From Desulfoferula mesophila (lineage in GTDB: Bacteria > Desulfobacterota > Desulfarculia > Desulfarculales > Desulfarculaceae), in NCBI RefSeq assembly GCF_037076455.1, contig NZ_AP028679.1:1565501-1629500 (forward strand): DNA of 64,000 nt, read 5' to 3'. The position numbers and the translations under genes were made by a program. Shown piece after piece: positions 32,734-41,771 of the stretch. A model generated the notes under the pieces. It did no database searches, was not told where the DNA came from, and saw only the letters and a program-made list of their open reading frames with translations. Position 1 is the first letter of the stretch. The number at the start of each line of letters is the position of its first letter.

Positions 32734-33729
32734 TTATTCCTCCAGGGAAGGGGCCGCCCCTTTGCCCGCGCCGAACCGGCTGCGCAGGCCGCCCAGGGTG
32801 GCGCCGTAGGCATGCAGGTAGACCAGGCCCAAGGGCACGGTCAAATACATCAGAGCATTGATGAAAACACTGTAGATCAGGGCCTGGGAGCTGTCCACGC
32901 CGAAGTAGCCCAGGCCCAACACGCAGAAGTATTGCAAGGGGCCGATGTTGCCCACCGTGGAGGGGATGGTCATGCCCACGAAGATGAAGCAAAGCACGAA
33001 CAGCACCTGAGGGTAGGTGACCTGCAGATCGAAGGCGTAGGCCAGGAGCCAGTAGGCGGCCCCCTCTATGAGATACACCGCCCAGCCCAGGGCGATGATG
33101 GCCGCCAGGCGTGAGGGGCTCTTGACCACGGCCAGGCCCTGCACAAAGGTGGTCAGCCAGCCCTGGGCCCGCTCCCGCAGGCCCTCCCAGGGCAGCAGGG
33201 CGGTCAGCTTGAGCACCCAGCCGGGCCGCCGCTGCAACCAGAACAGCCCGGCCATTAGCCCCAGGCACAGGGCCAGGCCCACCAGGGCCAGGCGATAGAG
33301 CTCGCCCCGGCCGGTTAGCCACACCGCCACGCACAACAGCACCAGCAACGAGAGCACCTCCAGCACCCGCTCCAGCACGATGGTGGAGAGCACCGAGGTG
33401 GCGGGCACCTGTTCCCGGCGGCCACAGATAAAGGCCCGCACCAGCTCGCCCAGGCGGGCGGGCAACAGGGAGTTGGCCGCGCAGCCCACCAGGATGTAGC
33501 CCAGGCAGTCGCCCAGGCCCACCGGCTTGATGCGCCCCAGGATAATGCGCCATTTTTGGGCCCGAGGGATGAACCCGGCCAGATACACCAGCACCACCGG
33601 CAGCAAGAGGGGCCAATAGACCTGGGTGAGGGCCTGCCACAGCTTGGCCGGCTCCACCTTGCGCAGCACCAGGTAGAGGAACAGGGCGGTGATGATAAGG
33701 AGTATCAGGCGCTTGGCGAGGCTTTTCAT
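32734..33729 (-). CDS. Flippase-like UPF0104/LPG-synthase-type membrane protein (copy 3)
   Basis: A 331-residue polytopic protein of PF03706. Features: MKSLAKRLILLIITALFLYL at the start, RAQKWRIILGRI (about 56-67), the loop VGCAANSLLPARLGELVRA (about 80-98), and later FVGMTIPSTVGNIGPLQYF, all standard for the family. The start is ATG 33729; upstream in-frame residues are Ala/Pro-rich and unlike the family. It is the first gene of the minus-strand unit with the epimerase, diverging from the GT2 gene at 33896. The 166-nt divergent gap has a CCGCGC/GCGCGG hairpin (33833-33850) and no clear promoter. Confidence 0.85.
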   Translation of the reverse strand: MKSLAKRLILLIITALFLYLVLRKVEPAKLWQALTQVYWPLLLPVVLVYLAGFIPRAQKWRIILGRIKPVGLGDCLGYILVGCAANSLLPARLGELVRAFICGRREQVPATSVLSTIVLERVLEVLSLLVLLCVAVWLTGRGELYRLALVGLALCLGLMAGLFWLQRRPGWVLKLTALLPWEGLRERAQGWLTTFVQGLAVVKSPSRLAAIIALGWAVYLIEGAAYWLLAYAFDLQVTYPQVLFVLCFIFVGMTIPSTVGNIGPLQYFCVLGLGYFGVDSSQALIYSVFINALMYLTVPLGLVYLHAYGATLGGLRSRFGAGKGAAPSLEE

Positions 33730-33895
33730 GGCAATCCCGGCCGAAGGGGCCATGGCGTGGGTTGCGGTTGCGGGGGCCAAAAGCCCCGGACCAACGATTG
33801 CTCAACCTATCAGAGCCCCAAGGCTTTGGCAACCGCGCGCGGTGGCGCGGCCCGTGCGGATATGCTAAATCTAGCCTCGCGAAAGGACGGACATA

Positions 33896-34573
33896 ATGAG
33901 CCCAAGCGAACCCCAGATCACCGTGGCCATGATCTCCATGAACGAGGAGCGGGCCGTGGGCAAGGTGATCGCCGACATAAAGGCAGCCGCGCCCCAGGCC
34001 CACATCCTTTTGGTGGACTCTTCCAAGGACCGCACCCCCGAGATCGCCGCGGCGGCCGGGGCCGAGGTGCTGCGCCAGTTTCCGCCCAAGGGTTACGGCC
34101 CGGCCATGATGCGGGCCCTCACCTCGGCACCCGGCCAGGTGGTGGTCACCCTGGACTGCGACGACACCTACCCCACCGACCGCATCATGCAGATGGCCGA
34201 CTACGTGCTCTCGGGCCAGGCCGACGTGGTGGACGCCTCGCGCCTGGAAAAAAAGCCCGCCTCCATGCCTTGGATCAACTACCTGGCCAACTGGGGCTTC
34301 GCCTGGCTGGCCAGCGTCTTGTTCCTGCGGCGCATCACCGACCTGCACTCGGGCATGCGCGCCTACCGCACCAGCCTGTTCGATGAAATGGCATTCGAGG
34401 CCAACGGCTCGGCCCTGCCGGTGGAGCTGTTGCTCAAGCCCATGGCCCACGGCAAGAAGCTCCAGACGATCTTCATCCCCTATGACGAGCGCACCGGGGA
34501 GAGCACCCTGGACCCCCTGAAAAGCGCCTGGTGGACCCTCAAGCGCATCCTCAAGGTCCGTTTCGGCAGCTAA
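33896..34573 (+). CDS. GT2 glycosyltransferase, polyprenyl-phosphate sugar synthase-like (no membrane domain)
   Basis: A 225-residue GT-A enzyme without membrane spans. It has AMISMNEERAVGKVIADI at the start, LVDSSKDRTPEIA (40-52) for the nucleotide, VVTLDCDDTYPTDRI (82-96) with the metal-binding DCDD, and a C-terminal IPYDERTGESTLDP. It resembles dolichyl-phosphate mannose/glucose synthases, which charge polyprenyl phosphate with a sugar for GT-C enzymes. AAGGACGG precedes ATG 33896. It is a single-gene transcript whose 3' end overlaps the convergent GT-C gene by 4 nt. One of three GT2 enzymes in the island. Confidence 0.85.
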   Translation: MSPSEPQITVAMISMNEERAVGKVIADIKAAAPQAHILLVDSSKDRTPEIAAAAGAEVLRQFPPKGYGPAMMRALTSAPGQVVVTLDCDDTYPTDRIMQMADYVLSGQADVVDASRLEKKPASMPWINYLANWGFAWLASVLFLRRITDLHSGMRAYRTSLFDEMAFEANGSALPVELLLKPMAHGKKLQTIFIPYDERTGESTLDPLKSAWWTLKRILKVRFGS

Positions 34574-36984
34574 TCCCCCGTCTTGTTTTTGCCGACGGCC
34601 AAGGGCAGCAGGCCCGCCCAGTACAACGGACGGGTCAGCGGGCCGGGCTGGGCTTGGAGCAACACCCAGCCTTGCAGAGGCTGCTCGCTGGCCGCGTAGC
34701 CCGCCCGGCTTAGGGCCTGGGCCGCGGCGGGAGCCATCTCGCCCTCCACGGCCACGCTCAGGGGCTCATCCCCGGGCATCAACTCCATGGCGTAAAGATA
34801 GGGCGGCAGCCAGGCCGGGCGGTGCCTTGTGGCCGGGCCCACGCGCATCGGAGGGGGCAACCAGGCCCGCAGCGTCGGGGGCGCCCATATCTGGTCCAGG
34901 CCCCAGGTGGTCTTGGCCAGGGTTTGCGCGGCCAAAACCGGCGAGGCCGGAGGCTCCGTCCGGGCCAGGCGGCCCACCAGCAGCTCGTTTATGGCCCAAT
35001 CGCCCCTGGCCTGGCCGGTCTGCTCCAGGCGCAGATAGCGCAGGGCGACGGGCGCGAAGCGAATCTCCTGCCAGGGAGACCGGAGGCTGAGGTTCAGCCG
35101 CTCGGCGCTCCAATGGAAGGGCAGGTAGGGCTGGGCCCTGGCCAACTCCCGCCAACGCTCGCCGTCGCTGCTGCCCAGCACCTTGAGCTCCCTGGGCAAC
35201 AGGCCGGCCCGACCGGGGAAGATGAGCACCTGGCACACCTTCTCCACCTTCCCGCCCAGGTCCAGGGTAGGGCCGCTGCCCGGCCTCTGGGGCCAGGTGA
35301 GGCGGGTGGCGGCGTCGCGGTCCCACATAGCCGCGCCCTCGCCGCCCCGTAGACTCCAGGGGCGGGTGTCCACCAGGGCCAGCTTGCGCTGGGGCGGCTC
35401 GAAATCATAAAACACGTGCCAACCGGGCTGCACCCGCTTTTCCCGGTAGCTGGCCCCTACCGTGGCCAGGCTTTGGCGGGTGACCTTGGCGTTGGACTCG
35501 CCCAGCATCACCACGGCGAAGCGGGGGGCGCGCAGCAGCGCCTCCTTGTAGGGAGGGTGGCGCTCGTGGTCAAAGGGCAGGAGGATCACTTCCTCGTCGG
35601 CCAAAAAGGTGCCCTTCATGCCCATCCAGTAGTCGTTCACGTAGGCGTAGCGAATGCCCATCTCCCTCAGGGCGCTGGTCAGGGCCTTTTGTTCCGGCCC
35701 CATGGCATTGGCCACGGCCCGCTGTCCGGCGTGGTTGAACGGCGAGAAGGCCACGGTGCCCCACAGGCTGCCCCCGGCCACCAGGGCCAGAAAGGCCCAG
35801 CCCAGCCCGGCCCAGAGCCCGCCCCGGCGGCGCAGGCAATCCCAGGCCAGGGCGGCCACCAGGGGCCAGAGTATGTACAGGGCCAGCAGGTAGCGGAAGG
35901 AGCCCGAGTCGGCTCCGCCCACCGCGCAGAACACGTAGGCCACGCAGCCCAGGGTGAGCAGCAGCACCTCGCCGCCGCTGGTCTCCGGTTTGCGGCCCAG
36001 GCGCTTGACCAGGTCCCCACCCCAGCGCCACAGGGCCCAGGCCAGGCTGAGCCCGGCGGCCAGGGCCAGGGCCGGCCCCAGGCCGGGGAGGAGCCAGCTC
36101 TTCTTGAACCAGGTGGCCCCCACCACCGCGGGCAGGCCGTGGCGCAGCAGGAAATACAGGTTGGCCGGGATGCCCGAATTGGGCCGGGGTATCTCCATGT
36201 AGTGCAGGGTGCCGCCCATGGTGAGCCAGTTGTGATAGATGAGGGGCGCGGCCCCCAGCAGGGCGGCCAGGCCCATCAACCAAAAGCGCGGCATGATCAG
36301 CAGGCGGGGGGCGCTGTAGAGCAGCAGGAACAGGGTGGGGGGCAAAAAATAGACGAACAGGGGGTTGGTCCACACCCCCACCCCTGCGGTGAGCCCCCAG
36401 GCCAGCAGGATGGCGGTCTGGCCGGGGCCGGCGGGTCCGGCCTTGAGCAAGAGCACCGTGAGCCACAGCAGCAGGGCGCCCAGGGGCAGCATCTCCACGT
36501 GCAGGCCCCGGGCCACCACCGAGTAGGCCACCAGCATGTAGGGCCCCAGGGCGGCCAGCAGGGCGGCGGCCAGGCCGGCCCGGCGGCCGATGATCTCCTT
36601 GCCCAGGAGGTAGAGCAGGGGCAGGTAGCTTAAGGATATGAGGACGGCGGTGAAATTGAGGGCGCGGGGGCCGGAGCCGAAGATGGCGAAGACCCCGGCG
36701 GCGATGATCGGCTCCAGGCTGCCGCCGTAGTGGTTGCCCCAGTACAGGGCGTAGAAATCGCCGTTCAGGGCGTGGCGGGCCATGAGCCCCACCACCGCGA
36801 TGTCGCTGTCCAGATAGGGCCAGGCCAGGTACAGGCCGCGTACCAGGGCCCCCAACAGCACGATGCCCATGAGCCACCAGACCACCCGCAGGCCGCCCGA
36901 GGGACGGTCTTCGCCGGGAGGGGCCGGGGGCGCTTGGGGACCTGGGATCAAGGCCAAGTTGTTTCCGCCGTGGGGCCGGGCCAT
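34570..36984 (-). CDS. GT39-like membrane glycosyltransferase with discoidin-like C-terminal domain
   Basis: An 804-residue protein. After the first span the loop has YLDSDIAVVGLMARHAL (D59, D61), then LYWGNHYGGSLEPI. Many membrane segments follow to about residue 430. The periplasmic C-terminal part (about 500-804) includes a discoidin/F5-8C-like beta-sandwich (PTLDLGGKV, LKVLGSSDGERW, LRYLRLEQTG), a likely sugar-binding module. It is paralogous to the protein at 38764, sharing the first-loop pattern and domain order. The start is ATG 36984, near the 87-nt repeat at 36990. Substrate unknown. Confidence 0.8.
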   Translation of the reverse strand: MARPHGGNNLALIPGPQAPPAPPGEDRPSGGLRVVWWLMGIVLLGALVRGLYLAWPYLDSDIAVVGLMARHALNGDFYALYWGNHYGGSLEPIIAAGVFAIFGSGPRALNFTAVLISLSYLPLLYLLGKEIIGRRAGLAAALLAALGPYMLVAYSVVARGLHVEMLPLGALLLWLTVLLLKAGPAGPGQTAILLAWGLTAGVGVWTNPLFVYFLPPTLFLLLYSAPRLLIMPRFWLMGLAALLGAAPLIYHNWLTMGGTLHYMEIPRPNSGIPANLYFLLRHGLPAVVGATWFKKSWLLPGLGPALALAAGLSLAWALWRWGGDLVKRLGRKPETSGGEVLLLTLGCVAYVFCAVGGADSGSFRYLLALYILWPLVAALAWDCLRRRGGLWAGLGWAFLALVAGGSLWGTVAFSPFNHAGQRAVANAMGPEQKALTSALREMGIRYAYVNDYWMGMKGTFLADEEVILLPFDHERHPPYKEALLRAPRFAVVMLGESNAKVTRQSLATVGASYREKRVQPGWHVFYDFEPPQRKLALVDTRPWSLRGGEGAAMWDRDAATRLTWPQRPGSGPTLDLGGKVEKVCQVLIFPGRAGLLPRELKVLGSSDGERWRELARAQPYLPFHWSAERLNLSLRSPWQEIRFAPVALRYLRLEQTGQARGDWAINELLVGRLARTEPPASPVLAAQTLAKTTWGLDQIWAPPTLRAWLPPPMRVGPATRHRPAWLPPYLYAMELMPGDEPLSVAVEGEMAPAAAQALSRAGYAASEQPLQGWVLLQAQPGPLTRPLYWAGLLPLAVGKNKTGD

Positions 36985-36989
36985 TAAAG

Positions 36990-37076
36990 GGCGTGGCGGC
37001 CGGGGCCCCGCTCCGGGACGCCTGGGGCCAGTGTAAAGAGCGAGGCCCGGCTTTACAAGGGGCTTGGAGTCGGGAT
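36990..37076. repeat. 87-nt imperfect direct repeat, left copy
   Basis: It aligns without gaps to 38684-38770 with roughly three quarters identity (for example GGCGGCCGG, GACGCC, CCCGG, TTTAC and GGGGCTTGG). It lies 5 nt upstream of the minus-strand gene start at 36984, so it is that gene's leader. Together the two copies bracket the AT-rich UbiA insert. The rest of the gap, 37077-37324, is AT-richer, with no gene and no convincing promoter. Confidence 0.65.
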
Positions 37077-37324
37077 CATACCGGGGCGACCTGTGCGGCC
37101 GGCGGTGTCGAGGGTACTCGTTAGCTGGTAAAATTCATCCTGTTCAGTTCCATGAGGGCGTTCCAGGCAGGCTCGGATGGGGATAAAAATACTCGCTCCG
37201 TGGAACTGGATATGGCATGTTGTGGCCACGGTGAGCCAAGAGAGTCCATGGCTCGCGCCAAGTAGTTTTAATAGACCCAGAGGTGGTTCAGACCATCGGC
37301 ATAAAGGTAGTTTGAATTAACAAT

Positions 37325-38281
37325 ATGAGCGTTCACAAACCATCTCTTAAAGATTATTTGGCGATTTGTCGTTTTGATCATTTCACAAAGCACGTTTTCA
37401 TAATACCCGGGATATGTCTGGCCTATATTCTTCGTTATCAGCACGTGCATATCCAATGGGCCAACATCCTTTTCGGATGCATAGTTGCCTTGTCCATCGC
37501 CTCGGCCAACTATGCCATAAACGAATGGCTCGACCGAAATTTCGACAAGTTCCACCCTGATAAATCATGGCGCACGGCAATCCAGTTCAATCTTGACCCT
37601 CGTGTGGTTTGGCTGATGTGGGGGGGGCTGGTTTTTATCGGGCTGGGCGCCGCCTGGCTCGCGGGCAAAGTCATGTTTATCGCCGGGTCGCTATTCGTAC
37701 TGCAAGGCATATTCTATAACGTCCCGCCGCTGCGCAGCAAAGACCGCGCTTATCTTGACGTCGTTTCGGAATCAATTAACAACCCCATCCGCTTGACAAT
37801 CGGCTGGGCAATGATTGACCCGACCACTCTTCCCCCCGCCTCGATAATTTTGGCTTACTGGCTGGGGGGCGCATTCTTGATGGCCGCCAAACGATTGAGC
37901 GAATATCGGGAGACGAATGCAGCGGGGCAGAGGGAAGAACTAGAGAAGTATCGCAAAAGTTTTTTGCATTATAGCGAACTGTCATTGCTTATTTCGTGCG
38001 TGGCGTACGCGATGATGTCCAATTTTTTCATGGCGGTGTTTTTCATAAAATATCGGGTTGAATTTATAATTTTGCTGCCAATGACCACCTACCTTTTCTG
38101 TTACTATTTGGCCATTTCCATGAAGCCGGGGTCGGTCGCTCAAAAGCCGGAGAATTTATTACATGAGCGTAATTTAATTGTGACCATGTCGGCCCTATTT
38201 GTTTTGTTCCTGCTGGCATTATTTATCGATATGCCGTTTATCGAGACTTTGGCCGTTCAAAAATACATCGTGCTGCCATAG
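37325..38281 (+). CDS. UbiA-family prenyltransferase, DPPR-synthase-like
   Basis: A 318-residue polytopic UbiA-family protein. The first Asp-rich motif is NEWLDRNFDKFHPDK (N66, D70, D74, H77, K80). The second region is RSKDRAYLDVVSESINN (R137, K139, D140, D145, E149). The D-x3-D-x2-HP-x-K pattern resembles decaprenyl-phosphate phosphoribosyltransferases, which attach phosphoribose to a polyprenyl phosphate on the way to an arabinose donor; this match is by motif only. The gene is much richer in A/T than its neighbours, and its ribosome-binding site is weak. It is immediately followed by a broken HAD phosphatase, the usual next enzyme in such pairs. Probably acquired horizontally. Confidence 0.8.
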   Translation: MSVHKPSLKDYLAICRFDHFTKHVFIIPGICLAYILRYQHVHIQWANILFGCIVALSIASANYAINEWLDRNFDKFHPDKSWRTAIQFNLDPRVVWLMWGGLVFIGLGAAWLAGKVMFIAGSLFVLQGIFYNVPPLRSKDRAYLDVVSESINNPIRLTIGWAMIDPTTLPPASIILAYWLGGAFLMAAKRLSEYRETNAAGQREELEKYRKSFLHYSELSLLISCVAYAMMSNFFMAVFFIKYRVEFIILLPMTTYLFCYYLAISMKPGSVAQKPENLLHERNLIVTMSALFVLFLLALFIDMPFIETLAVQKYIVLP

Positions 38282-38587
38282 TGGAGAGCGACATGGTTCG
38301 ATGCGCAGACTTGGCGTGACATCGAACTTGTCGTTTTCGACGTGGATGGAACCTTCTACGACCAGAGGATCTTGCGCCGCAAGATGATGCTGGAGTTGTT
38401 GGCCCACTGTCTGGCGCAACGGTGTTTCATTCCGACTATCCGGCCGCTGCCAAGGTCGCGGCGTTGGGCTTGTCGGCTGATGATATTGCAGGTGCCCGGG
38501 ACCACGGCGTCGGCATACTCAAGCCGCATCCCAGGGGACTGCTGCAATTGATGCAAAGGGCGGGGATAGGGCCGGCGCGCATTGCTT
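38282..38587 (+). pseudogene. Degraded HAD-family hydrolase remnant
   Basis: Directly after the UbiA stop the frame from 38282 encodes ELVVFDVDGTFYDQRILR, the N-terminal DxD motif of a HAD phosphatase, without a usable start codon. Near 38420 the similarity jumps to another frame, giving VFHSDYPAAAKVAALGLS and GVGILKPHPRGLL before a TGA at 38585-38587. That is the C-terminal half of the same HAD type, cut before its last Asp motif. The middle part is missing, so at least one deletion plus a frameshift occurred. The intact enzyme may have removed phosphate from the UbiA product. The stretch 38588-38683 shows no gene. Confidence 0.7.
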
Positions 38588-38683
38588 GATAAGATCCAGG
38601 CGGCCCTGCGCGGACCTTGCCAACTTCCGCTCCTTGGACGATCCGATATTTGCAACGTTCAGCGCGCCCGAACAAGCCTGAGG

Positions 38684-38770
38684 GGCGCGGCGGCCGGAGC
38701 CCCACTCCAGGACGCCCGGGTCCTAGGTGATGCGCGAAACCCGGTTTTACTCGGGGCTTGGGGCTAGGAT
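38684..38770. repeat. 87-nt imperfect direct repeat, right copy
   Basis: Partner of 36990-37076, in the same orientation and at equal length. It includes the last 7 nt of the minus-strand gene ending at 38764. With the left copy it marks the borders of the AT-rich insert (37077-38683). In the minus-strand direction it is the 3' spacer of one GT-C gene, and the left copy is the 5' spacer of the next. Confidence 0.65.
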
Positions 38771-41034
38771 TGCTTCGGCGGGCAAGGGGCGGCGTCCAGC
38801 AGGTCCGCCGGGCTGCGCCGGCTTTTGCGGGCGGCCTCCAACAGGAGGCGGTAGGGTTGTTCCCATTCCGGGGCCTGGCAGGCCGCCCGGCGCAGGTGGC
38901 CCACCACTTCGGGCCAGTCTACCTGGGAGGCCCAGAAGCGGGCAAAGGCGGAGTGGCCCGCCGGGAAGGGGGCGGTGGGGCGCTGGCCCCAGGCAGCCAG
39001 GGCCCGTTGGCCGCGCCGGAGCTGCTCCTGGGCCCTGGGGGGCCAGGAGTGGGAGTCCGCGGCCGGTTCATAAACGAACACTTCGGCGATCTTCAGGGCC
39101 GGCCAGGAAGGATTGCCCGGCTTCACCTCCAGGCGCAGCCAGCGCACGGTTTGGGGCTCGAAAGTGAACTCCAAGGCGGGCACCGGGGCCAGCTTGACCC
39201 GCTTTCCCCGCCAGGTGAGCCCGGCCATGCTTCCCTTGCCCCCGGCCAGGGTCTGCCAGGTCTTGCCGTCCAGCGATCCCTGGACGCTGAGGTTGTAGAG
39301 CATACCCGGCTTGCCCCGCCAATTGAAGGGGGGCAAAAGGCTCAAGCGGGCCACCGGCCGGGCCTGGCCCAGGTCCAACAACAGCCGGGACGGCCGCTGG
39401 TTATCGCCCGGCCAGGCGGTGCCCAGGTTGCGGTCCAAGACCGACGCGGCATGCTCCTGCTCGGAGTGGGCGCGCCAGTCCCGGGAGGGCAGGGGGACCA
39501 GGGTGGGTGCGGGATCGAAGTCGTGCCACACCACGTACTCTTCCACCTCCAGGGGACTTTTCCACGCCCCCAGGCGGCGCAGGGCGCGGTCCAGCATGGC
39601 GGGGGCGGGCACGGCCAGGCGCTTGTGGGTGACCCAGGCCGGCTGGTCCGCCGCGTCCACCTGGCGCAGATGGCTAAGATTGCGCGCCCCGAAAAAGTCC
39701 GCGGCCAACAGCCGCCCTTGGCTCTCGAAGGTGAGCGGCAGGGCCACCCGGCCATGGGCGTAACTGAAATTCACCCCCTCGTCTTCCAGAACCGCGAGCA
39801 GGGCCTCCACCGGCCGGTGGGGCGTCTGGGCAAAGCGCTCCAGATACAGATGGTGGGTGTAGAGATTGAACAACAGCAGGCCGCCCATGAGCCCCACCCC
39901 CGCCAGGTGACGCCATTGGCTCACCTTGACCAGCCACAGGGCGGCCAGCACGGTCAGGGGGATCATCATGGGGGTGGCGTAGCGCAGGATGGCCTTGTGC
40001 CCGTGTCCGCTGGAGGCGTGCAAAAACAACAGCACCCACAGGGCCAGGATTATCAGGTCGGCCGGCGATCGCCAGGGGTTCTGCCGCTTCCAGGCGCGGC
40101 GGGCCCAGCGCACCAGGGCGGCCACGGCCAGGCCCAGGGCGGGCAGATAGACCAACAGCAGCACCACCGCCGGGGCCGCCAGGGGCATCTGCCCGGCCAC
40201 GCTGCGCCCGTCCCACCAGGCCCCGATGAGCATGGGGCCCCACACCGACTTGAGGAGCATGGCCGCGTTGGACCAGGTCCGGCCCAGTTGGGATCCGCCC
40301 ACCTGCACCAGGGTGAGCCAATGATGCTCGGCGTTCCACGCTAACAGAGGGGCCACCCCGACCAGCAGGCCCAGCCCGGCCAGCCAGGGCCCCCGGCCCA
40401 GCAGCCACCGGGGCCGAGCCAGGCCCAGACCCAGCACGGAAGCGGCCACCAGGGGCAGGATCAGCAGGCTGGACCACAGGCCCAGGCCGCCCACCACCCC
40501 CAGGCCCAGGGCCCACAGGCCCTCGCGGCGGGGAGGGTCAAAGGCCAGGCGGCAGGCCCCGGCCAACAGCAGCGCCCCGGCCACCACCGCTTCCAAATGC
40601 CCGCCGGTGACGTACACCCCCTGAAAGCTCAAGAACAGGGGGGGAAGCGACCAGAGGCAGGCGGCCCAAAAGCCCAGGCGCCGCCCCCCGGCCGCCCGGC
40701 CCAGGGCGAACAGGGCCAACACCCCGGCGCTGCCGTAGACGAGCAGGGCCAAGCGCAGCATCAGGGTGCTGGGCCCGAACAGCTTGAACAGCAGGGCGGC
40801 CAGATAGGCCTCCAGGGTGCCCATGTAGGGCTGGCCCCAGAATAGGATATGGTGCTTGCCGTCGATTATATCCAGGGCCATCAGCCCGGTGACCGCCTCG
40901 TCGTAGTCCACCTGACTGAGCGAGGGGCAGGAGATGAGCCACAGGCGCACCGCCCAATACAAGGCCACGCAAGCGGCCAGGCCCAGGGCGGTTTGCCAGG
41001 CCTTGGGGCGCCGGGGAGGCTCGCCCGGATTCAC
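38764..41034 (-). CDS. GT39-like membrane glycosyltransferase with discoidin-like C-terminal domain (paralogue of 34570)
   Basis: A 756-residue protein. The first loop is VDYDEAVTGLMALDI (D43, D45, E46), followed by LFWGQPYMGTLEAYLAALLF, the same layout as the protein at 34570. Membrane segments run to about residue 420. The periplasmic end holds a discoidin-like domain (ARLSLLPPFNW, LSVQGSLDGKTWQ, VRWLRLEVKPG). The start is GTG 41034, which overlaps the GT2 stop (GTGA), so the two are cotranslated. The GT2 enzyme probably makes the donor used here. Confidence 0.82.
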   Translation of the reverse strand: MNPGEPPRRPKAWQTALGLAACVALYWAVRLWLISCPSLSQVDYDEAVTGLMALDIIDGKHHILFWGQPYMGTLEAYLAALLFKLFGPSTLMLRLALLVYGSAGVLALFALGRAAGGRRLGFWAACLWSLPPLFLSFQGVYVTGGHLEAVVAGALLLAGACRLAFDPPRREGLWALGLGVVGGLGLWSSLLILPLVAASVLGLGLARPRWLLGRGPWLAGLGLLVGVAPLLAWNAEHHWLTLVQVGGSQLGRTWSNAAMLLKSVWGPMLIGAWWDGRSVAGQMPLAAPAVVLLLVYLPALGLAVAALVRWARRAWKRQNPWRSPADLIILALWVLLFLHASSGHGHKAILRYATPMMIPLTVLAALWLVKVSQWRHLAGVGLMGGLLLFNLYTHHLYLERFAQTPHRPVEALLAVLEDEGVNFSYAHGRVALPLTFESQGRLLAADFFGARNLSHLRQVDAADQPAWVTHKRLAVPAPAMLDRALRRLGAWKSPLEVEEYVVWHDFDPAPTLVPLPSRDWRAHSEQEHAASVLDRNLGTAWPGDNQRPSRLLLDLGQARPVARLSLLPPFNWRGKPGMLYNLSVQGSLDGKTWQTLAGGKGSMAGLTWRGKRVKLAPVPALEFTFEPQTVRWLRLEVKPGNPSWPALKIAEVFVYEPAADSHSWPPRAQEQLRRGQRALAAWGQRPTAPFPAGHSAFARFWASQVDWPEVVGHLRRAACQAPEWEQPYRLLLEAARKSRRSPADLLDAAPCPPKQS

Positions 41035-41771
41035 TTGGCGGAAGGGGCTTCGGAAGGATCGAAGCTCTTGTTGAAGCGCACGCGCCACACGTTGAGAAAG
41101 GCCTCCACCGCGATGGAGCCGCTGAGTTTGGACTGGCCCACCCGGCGGTCTTCGAAGATGATGGGCGATTCTTCGTGGCGAAAGCCCAGGCGGTGGGCGC
41201 GAAAGGCCATTTCCGGCAGGGCGGCGAAGCCCTGGGCCCCTATGCTGGCCAACTGCAGGCGCTCCAGGACCTGGCGGGGCCAGCATTTGTAGGCCCCGGT
41301 TAGGTCGCGCACCGGAAGGCCCAGCACGGTGCTCACGTAGATGTTGGCCCCTTTGCTGAGAAACCGGCGGCCCAGTCCCCAGTTCTTCACCCCGCCGCCG
41401 CGCACGTAGCGCGAGCCGATGCCCACCGCCCCCTTGCGGGCGGAGGCCACCAGGGCGGGCAGGGCCTCGGGGGGATGGGAAAAGTCGGCGTCCATCTGGG
41501 CCATAAGCGGCGCGTCGAAGTTGGCCAGGGCGTAGGCGAAGCCTTCGCGGTAGGCGGTGCCCAGGCCCTGCTTGCCGGGCCGATGGAGCACGTGGATGCG
41601 CGAATTTTCCCTGGCCAGCGAATCGGCGATGCGGCCGGTGCCGTCGGGCGAGTTGTCGTCGACGAAAAGGATGCCCAGGTCCAGCTCCAGGCCCAGCAGG
41701 GCCTCGCTGAGGGGACGGATGTTGTTGGCTTCGTTGTAGGTGGGTATTACGACCAGAACTTCCATGGGCAT
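41031..41771 (-). CDS. Polyprenol-phosphate mannose synthase-like GT2
   Basis: A 246-residue GT2 enzyme of the Dpm1 type with no membrane domain. VVIPTYNEANNIRPL (7-21), FVDDNSPDGTG (36-46), QMDADFSHPPEALP with the DAD metal site (92-105), GSRYVRGGGV, and the C-terminal EDRRVGQSKLSG are all family marks. It transfers a sugar, probably mannose, from GDP-sugar to polyprenyl phosphate on the cytosolic face. ATG 41771 or ATG 41765 may start it. It is coupled by a 4-nt overlap to the GT39-like gene at 38764, a donor-maker/donor-user pair. Confidence 0.9.
   Translation of the reverse strand: MPMEVLVVIPTYNEANNIRPLSEALLGLELDLGILFVDDNSPDGTGRIADSLARENSRIHVLHRPGKQGLGTAYREGFAYALANFDAPLMAQMDADFSHPPEALPALVASARKGAVGIGSRYVRGGGVKNWGLGRRFLSKGANIYVSTVLGLPVRDLTGAYKCWPRQVLERLQLASIGAQGFAALPEMAFRAHRLGFRHEESPIIFEDRRVGQSKLSGSIAVEAFLNVWRVRFNKSFDPSEAPSAK

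Follow-up and report, generated by a model that had tools for sequence, protein, structure and literature searches.

An old UbiA capture in a GT-C glycosyltransferase cluster of Desulfoferula mesophila and the history of its flanking spacer copies

The segment between the two GT-C genes

The window analysed is a 64,000-nt stretch of Desulfoferula mesophila DNA (NZ_AP028679.1, positions 1,565,501 to 1,629,500). Within it, a UbiA-superfamily gene and the remains of a HAD phosphatase gene lie between two GT-C glycosyltransferase genes, bordered on each side by a copy of a short spacer (Table 1). The flanking genes had been described as paralogous, and both do match PMT_2 and detect each other by sequence (E 1.7e-25). 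The GT-C2 open reading frame (840 aa) overlaps an adjoining same-strand GT2 gene (41031-41771); its start is probably over-extended into that gene, the true start lying further in. The earlier note on this DNA had seen a UbiA prenyltransferase in the segment. That gene is present, and the description was incomplete in that the segment also carries a HAD phosphatase gene, now broken, and a scrap of an IS481-family transposase. The HAD pseudogene keeps its old stop at its end (38679-38681), and no intact phosphatase gene accompanies the synthase-like gene at this locus.

Table 1. Features in and beside the segment, in window positions. G007 is the related genome Deltaproteobacteria MAG101 and L030 its contig (JAHLLJ010000014.1).
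Feature	Position	Strand	Remarks
GT-C1, PMT_2 glycosyltransferase	34570..36984	-	C-terminal F5/8-type-C match below cut-off
Left spacer copy	36989..37076		keeps minus-strand promoter-like TTGTAA-N17-TACACT ahead of GT-C1, and TGTAAAG/CTTTACA palindrome
Insert 5' part	37077..37324		common to G007 apart from ~200 nt missing here
IS481-family transposase scrap	37117..37165	-	49 nt, 82% match to last codons of G007 fragment L030:5734-6111
UbiA-superfamily polyprenyl-phosphate phosphoribosyltransferase-like gene	37325..38281	+	intact, 318 aa
HAD phosphatase pseudogene	38297..38681	+	against the intact 232-aa G007 gene, two internal deletions and fragments in three frames
Right spacer copy	38683..38770		decayed; without promoter-like match; groups with left copy
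GT-C2, PMT_2 glycosyltransferase with C-terminal F5/8-type-C domain	38764..41286	-	domain above cut-off in GT-C2 only

The transposase fragment of G007 encodes 125 aa, of which only the 49-nt scrap is left in this genome; beyond it, ~200 nt of the G007 sequence are missing. Its IS481 label comes from the annotation of several plasmid matches, its own Pfam match (rve_3) being below cut-off; the plasmid IS481 transposases match residues 37-124 of the G007 reading frame. An alternative placement of the scrap at 37185-37253, suggested by protein matches, was discarded because the corresponding part of that frame lies outside the stretch matched by the plasmid transposases. As to an IS481 composite transposon, a scrap is found on one side only, and the eight genomes of the genus gave one further weak match, in G005. 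The extent of the 5' region shared with G007 was taken from BLAST; its first ~30 nt align loosely, as weak evidence, with the 3' end of GT-C2 of relatives.

The sequence between the repeat copies (37077-38682) has a GC content of 51.4%, against 67% for the window, and windows of the same size elsewhere in the 64 kb (n=1180) have a minimum of 62.0% and a mean of 67.6% (sd 2.7). The segment had been called AT-rich, which holds in the sense that it is low in GC for this genome and fails in absolute terms. Codon use agrees, with GC3 of UbiA at 0.59 here and 0.42 in G007, compared with 0.85-0.92 in the six nearest conserved genes listed; the difference between the two UbiA genes fits gradual adjustment to a GC-rich host.

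Imperfect repeats of equal length at both borders had also been claimed, and such a direct pair was recovered far above shuffled controls: each copy has 88 nt, with 76% ungapped identity and a start-to-start distance of 1694, and a gapped local alignment gives 82.1% over 80 columns with a score of 76, where 200 dinucleotide shuffles reached no more than 25. The left copy starts four bases past the start codon of GT-C1, and the HAD stop lies one base ahead of the right copy. A profile built from five spacer copies, with 150 of 3342 first-look candidates scored, recovered both copies in the D. mesophila genome (E 3e-24 and 5e-19) ahead of a next match at E 0.016, so that a dispersed element, which would have undone the proposal, is ruled out, with only two strong copies present. 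Two BLAST-type searches of the same genome listed no third copy and were too insensitive, the partner copy itself being missed; the other stretches in one of them were 39 nt or shorter (best E 0.009). Two other identities for the repeats were set aside: no Rfam match was obtained in the window at gathering thresholds, and neither copy holds a match resembling an intrinsic terminator.

Filled and empty sites in the genus and the source of UbiA

A search of 60 relatives with GT-C2 gave close orthologs (at least 63%) in five genomes, G001, G004, G005, G006 and G007; the two other members of the genus, G002 and G003, gave nothing better than a 33% match and a short stretch at 49%. The flanking GT-C pair is found in six of the eight genus genomes and the insert in two of those six, this genome (G000) and G007. 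The empty sites of the other four consist of GT-C2, one spacer, a PF03706 (LPG_synthase_TM) gene and GT-C1, with no UbiA. A single spacer in relatives without the insert had been proposed as a check, and all four show it. What had been called the ancestral spacer interval did hold a single spacer; in all four empty relatives it also held the PF03706 gene (E from 8e-45 or better to 3e-44), which is missing here. The order in G007 is GT-C1, PF03706 gene, degraded left spacer, transposase fragment, UbiA, intact HAD, ~220 nt, right copy and GT-C2, the right copy comprising spacer together with the opening 20 codons of the PF03706 gene. On these alignments the repeat is the spacer of the GT-C cluster itself.

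The PF03706 gene, which is flippase-like, lies between the GT-Cs in five relatives (in G007 at L030:4456-5457), and its place is vacant here (window 36985-36989). A PF03706 paralog is still present in this genome at 32734-33780.

Within the eight genus genomes, strong matches to UbiA were restricted to this genome, G007 (88%, same place) and G003 (41%), the rest being at E 1e-4 or weaker. The G003 gene is of native GC, lies elsewhere (L057:13077-14395) and is adjoined by a HAD-like open frame; the two apparently form an independent phosphoribosyltransferase pair. In a UbiA tree of 21 rows, the window and G007 sequences belong to a clade of 15 rows (99/97) together with Bradyrhizobium, Variovorax and Rhizobium plasmids, and three homologs of their own class, which have long branches, stand outside an 18-row clade (100/99). 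Judged by this placement, UbiA is of foreign origin and groups with rhizobial, partly plasmid-borne genes; together with the low GC, this bears out the view of the segment as an insert.

In the plasmid collection, 21 records carry UbiA homologs (20 of the 21 listed), and Rhizobium accounts for 16. The order UbiA-HAD-GtrA was seen on all three Rhizobium plasmids examined and, with an adjoining PMT_2 gene, in Mesorhizobium (L041); a Rhodobacter plasmid has HAD-UbiA-GtrA. The 9-kb Paracoccus aestuarii plasmid p9146 (L076) carries a MobV relaxase, UbiA and a 467-aa hypothetical protein, with GtrA nearby and no HAD annotated, and is possibly a mobile sugar-lipid cassette.

Age of the capture and history of the spacer copies

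Between this genome and G007, dS of UbiA (Nei-Gojobori, a figure that may be inflated by a composition shift) is 0.67, compared with 0.36-0.64 for six locus genes and 0.31 for alaS. The capture is old and common to the two genomes, which amends the earlier interpretation. UbiA has a dN/dS of 0.092, the lowest of eight genes compared, which points to purifying selection and argues that the enzyme is still in use.

For a species marker, rpoB was found in only five of the eight genomes and was replaced by alaS, present in all eight (in G005 as two pieces). In the alaS tree G000, G005 and G007 are nearly unresolved, with G000+G007 at 62/45 and G005 very close to both. An eight-gene locus tree gives G000+G007 at 55/72, rising to 82/91 on codon positions 1+2, and topology tests (p-AU) reject G000+G005 (0.0005) and do not reject G005+G007 (0.385). 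Sisterhood of G000 and G007 is thereby moderately supported by the sequence data, and one capture in their ancestor would be the simplest reading.

In a tree of six spacer copies (78 columns, 6 rows), the two copies of this genome form a clade of their own (98/99), apart from the four others. The left copy has a near-zero branch, so the right one seems to descend from it or from a recent source common to both. The left copy has 87% identity to the G004 and G005 spacers; the right copy, compared alone with the G004, G005 and G007 spacers, shows no significant local similarity (scores 16-24, null maxima 26-30). Within G007, ~148 columns align between the two flanks, left and right (75%, E 7e-20), in the PF03706 start and its upstream region. 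Given the grouping of the copies here and the different, longer duplication in G007, the 88-nt pair now seen is unlikely to be the scar left by the capture itself. The proposal that the spacer was duplicated around the insert, as in recombination-mediated capture, therefore stands as regards copies of the local spacer around foreign DNA and probably falls as regards this pair being the scar. A transposon target-site duplication was rejected, 88 nt being an implausible length for one and the G007 duplication being different, longer and inclusive of coding sequence.

The spacer is probably promoter-bearing, to judge from a conserved motif. TTGN3-N17-TACAC(T/G), on the strand of the GT-C genes, occurs in six of eight spacer copies (left here, right in G007, and those of G001, G004, G005 and G006) and is missing from the right copy of this genome and the left copy of G007. 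It has one occurrence in the whole window. Against a promoter, its hexamers match the consensus at only 8 of 12 positions, and a standard scan did not report it. It overlaps a palindrome, TGTAAAG-N12-CTTTACA, whose exact pattern is found at one place in the genome. The motif may be read as the promoter of the downstream genes, with whichever copy is redundant decaying; an operator is the alternative suggested by the overlap with the palindrome. From its conservation, the kept left copy would give GT-C1 a promoter of its own despite the oppositely oriented insert.

Taken together, the likely course of events would begin with capture, by the ancestor of this organism and G007, of an IS481-associated UbiA-HAD pair from a proteobacterial pool resembling rhizobial plasmids. 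Its point of entry would have been the spacer that separates GT-C2 from the PF03706 gene in the resident GT-C cluster, with part of the local sequence duplicated around it; insert and duplication are seen by comparison, and the manner in which the junctions formed is inferred. Later, in this lineage, the PF03706 gene would have been deleted, the HAD gene broken and the right spacer copy rebuilt from the left; UbiA was kept under purifying selection. The likeliest route for the rebuilding would combine pairing of homologous spacer sequence at one end with an illegitimate join at the HAD stop at the opposite end; the loss of the PF03706 gene and the single join in this lineage are the least certain part. 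In homology-facilitated illegitimate recombination (PMC3240628), too, one junction depends on homology and the opposite one is illegitimate, but here the process is reconstructed from old, diverged junctions and was not observed.

It is rather unlikely that loss of the PF03706 gene instead came first and that UbiA-HAD was then inserted here independently, or transferred from a donor resembling G007, with the 88-nt pair as the direct scar of one homology-facilitated illegitimate event. Such an event would explain why the two copies here group with each other and not with the G007 copies, and would produce both borders, so close to the HAD stop and the GT-C1 start, from one illegitimate join without two coinciding deletions. 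It sits poorly with the identical position and orientation in G007, with left flanks that in both genomes continue into a shared transposase scrap and a shared region upstream of UbiA, with a UbiA dS as high as or above that of the flanking genes, and with the best trees, which pair G000 with G007. Distinctly improbable is an insert ancestral to a subgroup of the genus and lost from the empty genomes by recombination between the flanking repeats, with restoration of a single spacer: direct repeats permit such precise loss and G005 is very close to both filled genomes, but losses would be required in G005 and perhaps G004, as well as in G001 and G006 if the insert were older, and low GC and phylogeny indicate a foreign origin.

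Old capture followed by a later rebuilding of the right copy remains the preferred account. The capture, of a known kind of gene, is well supported, and the history of the repeat, though less securely reconstructed, is instructive. The locus shows, in a form that can be dated, how a lipid-sugar donor gene came from outside into a GT-C cluster already in place: related species provide both occupied and empty sites, and the partner gene (HAD) has stayed intact in one of the two filled genomes and died in the other. It further suggests that the repeats around an insert may have arisen when a local spacer was rebuilt at a later time, instead of being the scar of the capture, and cautions against reading such repeats as target-site duplications.

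Predicted role of UbiA and comparison with known systems

UbiA belongs to its superfamily by profile (PF01040, E 1.6e-15, 57.5 bits, cut-off 34.2), and its AlphaFold model (pLDDT 81) has the helical UbiA fold. The earlier description as a prenyltransferase resembling decaprenyl-phosphate phosphoribosyltransferase (DPPR synthase) is upheld by three kinds of match. That enzyme is the best NCBIfam model, without the equivalog cut-off (PRK12324) being reached (64.4 against 234 bits); it is the sole PDB sequence match at E up to 0.01 (8j8j); and 8j8j is the best VIA-align match (Z 26.8, 2.5 A, 284 residues aligned), followed by 8j8k, the same kind of enzyme, at 24.2, with other UbiA proteins at 21.7 or less among the families that VIA-align listed. 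Foldseek ranks an archaeal UbiA first by E-value, and its best TM-scores, among rows with E up to 0.001, are to 8j8j. Residues N66, D70, D74, R190 and E193, the loop-II Asn and two Asp and loop-IV Arg and Glu of the polyprenyl-phosphate phosphoribosyltransferase (PPPRS) type, are invariant in all ten aligned sequences and correspond to residues that Kelly et al. 2024 (PMC11127046) tested. Residue 67 is Glu in all 21 sequences examined, that of the window included; the published loop-II motif of DPPR synthase has its first Asp there, directly after Asn (D248 in ORF15), and the substitution is, at the sequence level, a conservative change.

UbiA most likely makes polyprenyl-phosphoribose, by analogy with published pentofuranose systems. 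From family, fold and active-site residues, it would transfer 5-phosphoribosyl from PRPP to polyprenyl phosphate; a 5'-phosphatase (HAD in G007, some host enzyme here) and a flippase would act next, and a GT-C would draw on the lipid-linked ribose on the outer side of the membrane. Points against this reading are the low NCBIfam scores, Glu at residue 67, the missing GtrA and the broken HAD gene. Kelly et al. (PMC11127046) report residual product from a mutant with an inactive phosphatase, so that the pathway need not fall silent without HAD. As flippase candidates, PF03706 proteins are present in the genome; GtrA was not found in any of the four genomes searched (7 of 14 control genomes positive). 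A DprE1-type oxidase (PF04030) was found in none of eight genomes, comprising seven of the genus (all except G002) and one Mesorhizobium, with 3 of 14 control genomes positive, C. glutamicum among them. Given this result, ribose is the likelier sugar than arabinose. The earlier idea that the gene could add a pentose donor is plausible, with that shift towards ribose; the link from UbiA to the two neighbouring GT-Cs is hypothetical. Both GT-Cs are ancestral, being present without UbiA in four relatives, and the adjoining GT2 gene matches dolichyl-phosphate hexose transferase (below cut-off); both points tell against assuming pentose use by them. Arabinosylation of Nod factor (noeC) was considered as a parallel and not relied on.

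It is highly improbable, if conceivable, that the organism uses polyprenyl-P-(5-phospho)ribose directly, the GT-Cs placing phosphoribose instead of ribose on a surface glycan; this would tie together strong purifying selection on UbiA, a destroyed HAD gene and the failure to detect either GtrA or DprE1 in the genomes searched, and, if true, would constitute a variant in which the donor is a lipid-linked phosphosugar. An ordinary quinone or haem prenyltransferase unrelated to glycosylation is barely credible, since membership of the broad superfamily, weak matches to several such NCBIfam models and the archaeal protein ranked first by Foldseek E-value are outweighed by DPPR synthase being best by NCBIfam, PDB sequence, VIA-align fold and Foldseek TM-score, and by the recurrence of HAD and GtrA partners. 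Production of a phosphoribose lipid for later conversion is the reading retained, and with it the range of pentofuranose-donor genes would be extended to this lineage.

The nearest functional parallel is the three-component pentofuranose system of Citrobacter youngae O1, with its PPPRS (ORF15), as set out by Kelly et al. 2024 (PMC11127046). Both loci combine a UbiA phosphoribosyltransferase and a HAD phosphoribose phosphatase with an adjoining GT-C bearing a C-terminal domain of carbohydrate-binding type, here represented by PMT_2 in both neighbours and by the F5/8-type-C domain of GT-C2. In contrast to that system as described there, HAD is here a separate and broken gene, the insert has no flippase gene, UbiA is antisense to the GT-C genes, and loop II reads N-E-x-x-D-x-x-x-D. 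Mycobacterial DPPR synthase Rv3806c (8j8j, 8j8k) has the same fold, an HPxK motif and the loop-IV Arg/Glu in common with UbiA, but identity in the structure alignments is 16-19%, the NCBIfam score falls below the equivalog level and the genome has no detected DprE1 homolog. Relative to the UbiA-HAD-GtrA operons of Rhizobium plasmids (e.g. pRL10, pRetMIM1b), the locus is without GtrA, chromosomal and set within a resident GT-C cluster, but it shares with them the UbiA-HAD order and ~53-55% UbiA identity.
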